From Polyangiaceae bacterium (GTDB lineage Bacteria > Myxococcota_A > Polyangia > Polyangiales > Polyangiaceae), in the NCBI GenBank assembly GCA_019637295.1, contig JAHBVX010000006.1:124001-188000 (forward strand): a DNA stretch of 64,000 nt. Direction: 5' to 3'. The notes beneath the pieces are model-generated. The model was not told the origin of the DNA, did no database searches, and was given only the letters and a program-made list of their open reading frames with translations. The position numbers and the translations under genes are program-made. Positions 28,701 to 30,780 of the stretch are shown one piece after another. Every line of letters begins with the position of its first letter. The stretch's first letter is position 1.

Positions 28701-29243
28701 TCAGTCGCCGAGGACGATGTCTACCCGGCGGTCGCGAGCCCAGCTGGCTTCATCCGTGCCGGTGGCATCCATCTCGCCGCGGGAGGTCGTCTCGGCGCGA
28801 GCGTCGTCGAGGCCCTTCTTGACGATGAAACCCTTGACGTTGTCCGCGCGGCGGCCGCCGAGCACCAGGTTGTAGTCTTCGTCGCCGCGAGGGTCGGCGT
28901 GGCCGACCAGGCGCATCTGCCGCCCGGCCAGGGGACCGCTCGTGAAGCAGGTCGCCAGCTGGCCCAGGACCTTGTGATCTTGAGCGCGGATGTTGGCGGA
29001 GTCGAACGCGAAAAAGGCATCTGCGTCAGAAATCCCGCAGGCCTTCTTAATCTCCTCGGAGATGTTGATCTGACTCTGGCTCGGGTCGTCCCCTGGCTTC
29101 TTGTTGTCGGTCTGGCCGACCAAGGCGGACGCGTTGGGGTCGTCCGTTCCGCCCGTGGGGCCCGTGGGCGGAGGCTTGGGATCCGATCCGCAGGCCAGCG
29201 CGAGCGAGGAAATCAGCAGCGGCAAGTACGTAGCTCGTTTCAT
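28701..29243 (-). CDS. pal: Peptidoglycan-associated lipoprotein Pal (OmpA-like)
   Basis: 180 aa. Lipobox in MKRATYLPLLISSLALACGS, then a disordered linker and an OmpA C-terminal domain with the peptidoglycan-binding region GHADPRGDEDYNLVLGGRRADNVKGFI. It tethers the outer membrane to the cell wall and binds TolB. Here pal precedes tolQ, whereas in enterobacteria it follows tolB. The separation from tolQ is about 70 bases with only a weak 5-bp hairpin. Confidence 0.9.
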   Translation of the reverse strand: MKRATYLPLLISSLALACGSDPKPPPTGPTGGTDDPNASALVGQTDNKKPGDDPSQSQINISEEIKKACGISDADAFFAFDSANIRAQDHKVLGQLATCFTSGPLAGRQMRLVGHADPRGDEDYNLVLGGRRADNVKGFIVKKGLDDARAETTSRGEMDATGTDEASWARDRRVDIVLGD

Positions 29244-29399: not shown

Positions 29400-29735
29400 T
29401 CAGCCGCCGCGAGCGCCGAGATAGGCCAATACCGCCAGGATCCCCGAGACAAAGAGCAGAATCCAGAGCAGCCCCCGGCCCGACGTCCGCTGCGGCTCGC
29501 TCGAGCGGAGGGTCTCCAGCTGCGCGAGCGCCAGCGCGAGCACCGCCGACAGTCGCTTGTCCGCGGTCGGACCGCGCTCGCGGTCCCCCGCCATGCCTCG
29601 ATAGCGGGCCGCCGCCTCGGCCAGCGCGCCCGTGGCGCGGCAGTGCTCGAGAAAGAGCGCGTGAGCCTTGTCGTTGTCCCAGTCGTCCACGACCTTCTTC
29701 CAGAGCTGCTCCAGAGTCGGATCGGTGCGCGCCAT
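29400..29735 (-). CDS. Small tail-anchored membrane protein, function unknown
   Basis: 111 aa from the ATG at 29735 (MARTDPTLEQLWKKV). The soluble helical N-terminal part (~85 residues) is followed by a single C-terminal TM helix (LLWILLFVSGILAVLAYLGA) and RGG, a tail-anchor layout. It is the last of three tightly spaced minus-strand genes (spacing 13 and 6 bases) with a CxxC-rich protein and a charged helical protein, so the three are probably one operon. Confidence 0.65.
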   Translation of the reverse strand: MARTDPTLEQLWKKVVDDWDNDKAHALFLEHCRATGALAEAAARYRGMAGDRERGPTADKRLSAVLALALAQLETLRSSEPQRTSGRGLLWILLFVSGILAVLAYLGARGG

Positions 29736-29748
29736 GGGCCGGTGACGG

Positions 29749-30174
29749 TCAGAGTCCGAGCTCGCCAGCCAGCCGCCGGGTAGTCGCGAAGTACTCCTGA
29801 CGCGACAACGGCTGGTTGAGCACGTGAAAGTCCTTGTTGGAGAGCCCGACACAGCCGAAGCAGTACGTGCACCCAATGCAGCCAATCGAGCGCACCAGGT
29901 AGGAGCTGGACATGCAGTCCTCGCACTCGGCGCAGTGGTGACAAGCCGTCAGATTCTTGCCGTCCGTGCAGTGTGAACAGTCTGCCGAGTTCATCAGCCG
30001 TACGCAGTAGTGGCAGCGCAGGAGCCGCTCGGACTCGCGACAGAAGGTGCACGACGAACAGCTACTGCAGTCGCTGCAGTGCACCGAGCCGACGTTGTCC
30101 GTCTGACTCCGCTGGCGAGCGACGAGCTCGCGAAACTGCGCCTCGAACTCCCGAACGCTGAGCTCGCCGTTCAT
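29749..30174 (-). CDS. CxxC-rich small protein, possible zinc-cluster or redox protein
   Basis: 141 aa, without signal peptide. Residues ~33-105 contain a dense series of CxxC-type pairs (CSDCSSCSSCTFC, CHYC, CSHC, CHHC, CEDC, CIGCTYCFGC), about 20 cysteines plus several histidines. That suggests several bound zinc ions or iron-sulfur/disulfide chemistry in the cytoplasm. N-terminal ~28 residues are helical and charged; C-terminal ~30 residues are ordinary. I do not recognise a named family with confidence. It is the middle gene of the three-gene cluster. Confidence 0.72.
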   Translation of the reverse strand: MNGELSVREFEAQFRELVARQRSQTDNVGSVHCSDCSSCSSCTFCRESERLLRCHYCVRLMNSADCSHCTDGKNLTACHHCAECEDCMSSSYLVRSIGCIGCTYCFGCVGLSNKDFHVLNQPLSRQEYFATTRRLAGELGL

Positions 30175-30180
30175 CAGGCC

Positions 30181-30780
30181 TCAGCGCAGCGAACGCCTGA
30201 GCTCTGCCGCCGCGTCGCGGGTGGGAGCCTCGTCGCCGTGCTCCTCCAGACGCCGAAGCCGCTGCAATAGCACCGGCAGCTTGTGGGCGTCCTGCTCGTC
30301 GAGCAGTCGCGCGAGCACCGTGATGGCCTCTCGGGCGCGCTCCTCGTCGAAGTGCTCGAGCAGCTGCAGCTGCACCGGTTGCTCCTCGGGAAAGAGAAAG
30401 CCCGCCTGCAGGTAGTCGTTGGCAGCGCGGCTGATCGAACCGCGCGTCTCGCTGAGCATGAGGCGCTCGAGGAGGCGCAGGCGACTTCGCTCACTGTCGT
30501 CGACCTCCGTGCGACCTGCAGTGACGATGCGCGCGACCCGTCGCGGCGGGCTCGGCGACTCGGCGGGGGCAGGGGCAGGCGCAACGGCGTCGCTCACCAA
30601 GGCCGCCTTGCCGTTCGACGGCGCCACCGAGGCGGCCAGCGCTCTACGGCCCGGGCGCGTCAGCAGGGGAGAATTCGGGCGGCGCGCCGCGATCATGACC
30701 GGCTCGGCGGCTGTCGGCTCGGCGCGGGACCGGCGGCGGCGTCTGCGCCCACCGCCGGACCTCTGGCGTTGTCCATCCAT
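30181..30780 (-). CDS. Basic/disordered N-terminus with helical repeat domain, function unknown
   Basis: 199 aa. The first ~90 residues are arginine- and proline-rich and probably disordered (a run of six arginines at ~12-17). The C-terminal ~105 residues are helical with a HEAT/ARM-like feel (AREAITVLARLLDEQDAHKLPVLLQRLRRLEEH). An Arg-rich N-terminus could bind nucleic acid. First gene of the three-gene cluster, ending 6 bases before the CxxC-rich gene. Confidence 0.6.
   Translation of the reverse strand: MDGQRQRSGGGRRRRRRSRAEPTAAEPVMIAARRPNSPLLTRPGRRALAASVAPSNGKAALVSDAVAPAPAPAESPSPPRRVARIVTAGRTEVDDSERSRLRLLERLMLSETRGSISRAANDYLQAGFLFPEEQPVQLQLLEHFDEERAREAITVLARLLDEQDAHKLPVLLQRLRRLEEHGDEAPTRDAAAELRRSLR

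Follow-up and report, generated by a model that had tools for sequence, protein, structure and literature searches.

Small solenoids whose inward-pointing residues recur at fixed spacing are known from pentapeptide-repeat proteins such as AlbG (2XT4), in which each side is five residues long and each coil comprises 20 residues. The antifreeze (thermal hysteresis) protein of Tenebrio molitor (1EZG, 1L1I) is built of 12-residue coils in which every third residue points inward, into a narrow Cys-rich core. According to a published account (PMC8038014), the inner residues of beetle antifreeze proteins are C2, S5, C8 and A11 of each 12-residue coil, and these proteins are made with a signal peptide, join C2 to C8 by disulfides and bind ice through a TCT face; the same source states that the 12-residue beetle solenoid has not been identified in antifreeze proteins from fish, plants, fungi or bacteria.

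We describe here a bacterial protein, the CxxC protein, encoded in a 64,000-nucleotide stretch of DNA from a Polyangiaceae bacterium (the window). Its predicted structure has in common with the beetle protein the 12-residue coil, the inward placement of every third residue and the narrow Cys-rich core, a likeness of fold for which common descent is unproven. Unlike the beetle proteins, it has no hydrophobic N-terminal stretch (judged by hydropathy only), no covariation of Cys pairs and no Thr ladder; its Cys occupy all four inward columns, and it further carries an aromatic/His column, a helix at its N-terminus and, at the other end, a conserved cap. With the pentapeptide-repeat proteins it shares the small size, the solenoid form and the regular spacing of inward residues, but its sides are only three residues long, giving a period of 3 within the 12-residue coils.

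The P3-CxxC-TA cluster

Three minus-strand ORFs follow one another in the window: P3 (30181..30780, 199 aa), with an Arg-rich N-terminal tail and a six-helix C-terminal domain; the CxxC protein (29749..30174, 141 aa), with an N-terminal helix, a predicted 12-residue beta-solenoid and a C-terminal cap bearing a CFGCVGLxxKDFHxLN motif; and TA (29400..29735, 111 aa), a tail-anchored protein. An earlier note on this DNA had described them as a three-gene cluster, and all three ORFs were confirmed, as were the gaps between them (6 bases for P3/CxxC and 13 bases for CxxC/TA). Its authors had recognised no named function, and indeed no Pfam or NCBIfam family fits: no match of any of these window proteins improves on E 0.12. 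The genome (7.65 Mb, 25 contigs) contains a single match to the CxxC protein.

Relatives of the CxxC protein were collected from pattern-matched stretches in GTDB contigs, 304 of 347 of which encode one; the best 80 of these 304 (L031-L110) and the window make up the set of 81 proteins and loci used below. The direct P3-CxxC-TA order, whose conservation had been proposed as a check, was found at 16/81 loci (the window and 15 of the 80 others), with P3 up to 288 bases upstream. Because the same direct order recurs in this way and the phase-3 Cys pattern holds almost without exception, the cluster is more than a chance arrangement, and the sequences support the view that P3-CxxC-TA is one conserved operon-like unit. 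A Pal-like lipoprotein ORF (28701..29243, minus strand; context from the ORF list, named from reading the sequence alone) starts 156 bases past the TA stop. The adjacency to Tol-Pal genes that had been remarked on is local, a Pal cluster occurring in 24/81 loci, a ground on which a Tol-Pal function for the cluster was rejected.

The P3 family is present at 39/81 loci, window included, within 60 bases at 35 of them and overlapping at 14. The basic tail of the window protein contains 11 Arg in its first 35 residues, and its C-terminal domain (30184..30528) is predicted to form six helices (AlphaFold2, pLDDT 95), in keeping with its earlier description as an Arg-rich helical protein; across the 38 members counted, Arg and Lys together number 4 to 15 in the first 40 residues. 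The C-terminal domain is perhaps Armadillo/HEAT-like. The evidence for this is weak: designed Armadillo proteins were matched (E 1.5e-4) with no single stretch passing, HEAT_2 was matched by 1/39 members (E 0.0015), many Armadillo/HEAT chains scored between Z 8.6 and Z 7.0 in VIA-align, a level that helical models reach by chance, and Foldseek with the P3 domain returned nothing at E <= 0.001. A KVWH[ND]P motif lies near the basic N-terminus in 14/39 P3 relatives (L048, L050, L052-L054, L056, L058-L060, L067, L071, L072, L080 and L094).

The TA family is found at 50/81 loci, window included, directly after CxxC at 19, after dtd (D-aminoacyl-tRNA deacylase) at 27 and further off at 4. The tail anchor claimed for the window protein extends to the whole family: all 50 members carry a 19-residue stretch with a Kyte-Doolittle mean of at least 1.6, followed by no more than 10 residues, and the strongest 19-residue hydrophobic stretch starts at residue 77 or later in 50/50. 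In the window the putative membrane anchor spans residues 89-107 (29415..29471, minus strand; mean Kyte-Doolittle 2.45), with 4 residues after it. Four residues of TA are invariant (H25, L38, Y45 and A69). The best PDB match of the TA profile has E 0.58, and Pfam yielded scattered single-member matches only, the best at E 0.007.

Cysteine pattern, predicted fold and distribution

The CxxC protein contains 17 Cys among its 141 residues, with 12 CxxC, somewhat fewer than the approximately 20 cysteines previously claimed, and every one of them stands at a position divisible by three, from 33 to 108. The remaining third residues of the solenoid core (C33-C108; 29851..30078, minus strand, delimited by phase counts and AlphaFold2 strands) are Ser, Leu or Gly, and in several coils Cys faces Leu or Ser (45/51, 57/63, 69/75). 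The 81 proteins have between 15 and 22 Cys (median 19). Counted over the ungapped solenoid block, 1456/1457 of their solenoid Cys are inward. The residues D, E, K, R, Q, N and H occupy 0/2106 inward positions, against shares of 34% and 53% in the two remaining phases. The same pattern was seen in a wider set, to which 38 of 40 loci from other families were added (119 in total) and which comprised 89 proteins after removal of redundancy at 80%: 1648/1649 Cys are inward and 0/2314 inward positions hold one of these seven charged or polar residues, the inward letters being C 1648, S 349, L 220, V 31, A 23, G 17, T 13, M 11 and I 2.

In the 81 proteins, eight Cys columns reach a conservation of 93% or more: C33, C36 and C108 (81/81), C105 (80), C39 and C57 (79), C87 (78) and C81 (76). 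Among the 89 non-redundant proteins C108 is kept in 89, C36 and C105 in 88, and C39, C57 and C87 in 85 each, while two columns weaken, C33 to 76/89 and C81 to 66/89. Superposed on the period of 3 is a period of 12, with F, Y or H preceding one inward residue per coil. The resulting outer column reads F44-Y56-H68-H80-Y92-Y104-F116 in the window, and its counts in the 81 proteins are F44 81, Y/F56 76, H68 76, H80 72, Y/F92 80, Y104 78 and F/Y116 81; it is not universal and varies more among distant relatives, Asn occupying position 80 in 7/29 rows of another set (L016, L018, L021-L024 and L027).

From the 81-row alignment, AlphaFold2 predicted a 12-residue beta-solenoid with pLDDT 93-97 over residues 41-100 and strands at 32-34, 44-46, 56-58, 68-70, 79-82, 91-94 and 103-106. 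The mean over the whole model is 80 (72 to 80 in five models), the C-terminal cap being poor and the N-terminal helix (residues 7-22; 30109..30156, minus strand; pLDDT about 65-77) less certain. With VIA-align, which compared 356 chains, all proposed by Foldseek, 1EZG ranked first (Z 9.1, 81 residues, 2.7 A; next entry Z 7.4); the NMR entry of the same beetle protein reached Z 5.9 and AlbG (2XT4) Z 4.3 (rmsd 5.2, 104 aligned). Foldseek itself found nothing in the PDB at E <= 0.001, the beetle NMR structure coming 33rd at E 0.83. A search of all PDB sequences with the family profile gave a single match at E 1 or better, that to the beetle protein (E 4.9e-4), in which the inward columns are in register; its score of 22.5 bits is smaller than the composition bias of 33.3. 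The CxxC protein alone matched just a PHD finger in the PDB (phmmer, E 0.4), and the best matches of the 81 members to curated families were at E 0.008 in Pfam (the PriA Zn ribbon, 2 members) and E 0.11 in NCBIfam. We consider it highly probable that the CxxC protein folds as a 12-residue solenoid. Because opposite sides of the coil resemble each other, a six-residue shift of the 1EZG alignment is possible, and no face of the model was matched to the beetle ice-binding face.

CxxC matches occur in 65/144 genomes of the class and in 95/377 genomes of the phylum. The matches are strong in 85 of these 95; the other 10 have partial matches only (E 5e-7 to 7e-4), which may be chance Cys-rich stretches. 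In the window's own family, 33 of the 35 genomes listed have a match. Plasmids gave none at E 0.01, and of 60 stretches of viral contigs that matched the bacterial-family patterns, none encodes a relative. The literature available to us, in part, contained no description of a dtd-linked bacterial Cys-solenoid family. The 12-residue fold type is known from beetles; as a conserved bacterial family with neither a Pfam nor an NCBIfam model it is not described in the literature found.

Among viral structures in BFVD, the best Foldseek match to the CxxC model is A0A5B8IEK9 of Mimiviridae sp. ChoanoV1 (E 3e-8), a protein of 138 residues labelled 'TNFR-Cys domain-containing'; H6SUK4 of phage IBB35 also matches (E 9e-6). 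Proteins of Campylobacter phages resemble the CxxC family in placing Cys at each third residue over many coils, and gp032 of CP220 ends in FGCYG. They differ from it in that nearly all of their inward positions are Cys and in their N-terminal part, and we do not claim common descent. These phage and giant-virus proteins, alike in pattern or predicted fold, hint at a broader class of Cys-triplet solenoids.

Several further observations concern the viral proteins. The name of H6SUK4 in BFVD, 'Caib/baif family protein', is probably a misnomer; a literature search returned no paper with the phrase 'caib baif family protein'. The genes for CP220 gp032 (L111:2411-2782) and CP21_166 (L112:1411-2265) lie between portal and DNA ligase genes, and their Cys triplets span roughly 80 and 230 residues, respectively, the latter with one short break; 17 Campylobacter phage records carry relatives. 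Viral sequences were also scanned for eight consecutive Cys triplets and the ORFs then filtered by phase score. Among the matches listed, 14/124 loci have ORFs that pass the phase score, some being Pro/Gly-rich frames that may not be genes. Contigs with such ORFs include L170, L180, L202, L209, L232, L239 and L255. A D-x-N-N-N-x-W-like motif precedes the Cys array in L155, L157, L170 and L202, and the C-terminus in L239, GLVGCSFxVGxVQFTEDEYRK, is reminiscent of the bacterial CxxC cap.

Linkage of the CxxC gene to dtd

The gene for D-aminoacyl-tRNA deacylase lies directly downstream of CxxC at 49/81 loci, a count that leaves out L041 and to which the window does not contribute. By the start chosen, dtd overlaps the CxxC stop in 22 of these 49 loci, and all four dtd proteins tested match PF02580 (E 1.7e-51 or better). 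The order P3-CxxC-dtd was found at 18/81 loci, and P3, TA and dtd are all missing at 8/81, one of which has only 11 bases downstream. A simple gene caller missed the CxxC gene at 12/81 loci, and the dtd, TA and P3 counts are by similarity. It should be borne in mind that some loci end near the gene, with 11 to 439 bases downstream in L040, L046, L091 and L094 and under 450 bases upstream in L044, L057 and L066, and that absences there mean little.

Outside the window's family, 40 of the 51 matches in the class were compared. At these loci dtd is directly downstream in 14/40 (1/1 in family f10, 10/11 in f13, 2/2 in f15 and 1/1 in f17). It is not directly downstream in f8 (0/3), f11 (0/19) or f6, f18 and f23 (0/1 each, with only 107 bases downstream in f6), and TA and P3 were found at 0/40. 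Nor is dtd adjacent at any of five Myxococcaceae-like loci ('Polyangiales-like' and 'Myxococcaceae-like' being our own clade labels for the relatives' loci), in the window or in its nearest relatives on the tree. The only dtd match in the window's genome lies on another contig (C8), so that linkage to dtd is invisible in the window; the ORF after this dtd reads like a HIT protein (name by reading). Mapped onto a tree of 121 CxxC proteins, the dtd label requires 10 changes, of which well supported branches force 8; shuffled labels require 40.5. The CxxC-dtd linkage, as read from these sequences, is old and has been lost or gained several times. The partly accessible literature contained no paper describing a CxxC-type gene partner of dtd.

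A somewhat unlikely explanation is that the function of the CxxC protein has nothing to do with dtd, that their linkage is inherited gene order and that the coupling aids expression only. In its favour, the linkage is missing in several clades, and two other kinds of neighbour, a lipoprotein-like gene (f10, f11, f15, f17) and metallo-hydrolase-like genes (f8, f15, f17), also persist, pointing to some old gene order. Nevertheless, when gene calls from both sets of loci were clustered, no neighbour other than dtd proved to be directly adjacent in five clades, and the overlap with the CxxC stop in nearly half of the linked loci also speaks against mere inheritance.

Other features of these neighbourhoods were also recorded. 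In two f13 loci, L127 and L142, CxxC has directly upstream of it a gene that matches PF00814, the tRNA-modification family of TsaD (E 2.8e-8 and 7.4e-11, respectively), which speaks for the tRNA-related reading given below. The lipoprotein-like gene is Cys-rich (name by reading) and lies near CxxC in L115, L118, L121, L126, L128, L137, L144 and L146, divergent in the f11 loci inspected and on the same strand in L118 and L121. Some f11 proteins that contain the CxxC domain are longer and have C-terminal extensions (518 residues in L128 and 364 in L137, by gene calls); L116, L131, L137, L144 and L146 have a proC-like gene (name by reading) in the neighbourhood.

Cysteine chemistry and proposed function

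The earlier note had held metal or Fe-S binding in the cytoplasm to be likelier than disulfides. The second half of this comparison stands, disulfides being disfavoured, and so does the lack of a signal peptide, the best 10-residue hydropathy mean in the first 32 residues being 0.22 (hydropathy only). The metal or Fe-S proposal is unsupported as it was put, with Ser, Leu, Val, Ala, Gly or Thr substituting for many of the Cys.

An unlikely reading is that Zn, Cu(I) or a cluster is bound within the solenoid by the inward Cys; cytosolic metal-storage proteins offer an analogy for such a metal-filled beta-solenoid. The abundance of Cys, the high conservation of eight of their columns and the lack of a signal peptide are all consistent with this, and in the 89 proteins Cys at neighbouring positions are positively coupled at 48/51 (phi 0.67) and 72/75 (phi 0.59), where CxxC is replaced as a unit and mostly alternates with SxxL. 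This swap is consistent with size compensation in a packed core, but also with shared descent or with a metal site of two Cys having been lost. Against metal binding, the other Cys columns tolerate Ser, Leu, Val or Ala, and even C33 and C81 weaken in the wider set. Five neighbour clusters are common to at least three clades and none resembles metal homeostasis (names by reading), and no member of the 81 matches a Zn-ribbon or Fe-S family better than the E 0.008 given above. The occurrence of Ser, Leu, Val, Ala, Gly or Thr at many Cys positions is no less compatible with core packing than with a role as metal ligands, and a reduced, packed core is the simplest reading of the cysteine chemistry.

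A disulfide ladder like that of the beetle antifreeze proteins, oxidised in the cell, or a redox sensor forming disulfides on stress, seems clearly improbable. Coil length and inward spacing are as in 1EZG, and both Cys are present at 33/39 in 74/89 proteins and at 81/87 in 63/89. However, Cys at opposite positions i and i+6 fail to covary in the 89 proteins (phi -0.38 to 0.22 where defined, some pairs varying little), which makes beetle-type disulfides unlikely, and the protein lacks a signal peptide. A match to a known secreted disulfide family, which the earlier note had said would count against its view, was found at the level of fold, the beetle protein being the nearest solved structure, but not at the level of Cys pairing. 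A secreted disulfide protein was rejected, the opposite Cys lacking covariation and the N-terminus a hydrophobic stretch. Ice binding, suggested by the beetle antifreeze fold, was rejected as so unlikely as to be nearly negligible, since none of 2025 inward positions is flanked by two Thr (the TCT face is absent), the outer column is aromatic/His and no signal peptide is present.

The reading that we prefer combines these elements, and we give it a probability of about 0.4: the CxxC protein would be a cytosolic solenoid with a packed and probably reduced core that serves, together with DTD, as a non-catalytic binding scaffold in tRNA proofreading. The cluster, the phase pattern, the conservation and the dtd linkage on which it draws come from sequence; the fold and the outward position of the column are predicted. 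According to the model, the protein would be a small beta-solenoid of about seven 12-residue coils, with every third residue, mostly Cys, Ser or Leu, pointing inward. The cysteines would mainly form a tightly packed core that fits a very narrow coil, and we infer that they are reduced. The aromatic/His column, predicted to face outward, is the likely binding face. The rigid scaffold may act in tRNA proofreading or a nearby translation step, where it would work with DTD and presumably bind DTD or tRNA. In the window's wider clade, P3, with its basic tail and helical domain, and TA, with its membrane anchor, would be added partners, and the anchor might provide membrane tethering. Set against this proposal is the fact that gene neighbourhood is not function, and that the adjacency to dtd is missing in the window and several clades.

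A bolder version, which we regard as quite unlikely, would make the family a new class of cytosolic thiol-filled solenoids and a dedicated partner of DTD. Here the aromatic/His column would grip DTD or the tRNA acceptor end, the Cys core would let proofreading respond to the redox or metal state, and phages and giant viruses would carry stripped-down versions.

If the proposed scaffold reading is true, it would place a solenoid of the beetle antifreeze type in the bacterial cytoplasm, as a conserved family without a name, and would raise the question of how a protein with up to 22 Cys stays folded there. The case also illustrates that richness in CxxC does not by itself mark a metal protein: a simple phase-3 test can separate a solenoid core from a zinc ribbon. 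Through its old link to dtd, the family may represent a new participant in clearing D-amino acids from tRNA.
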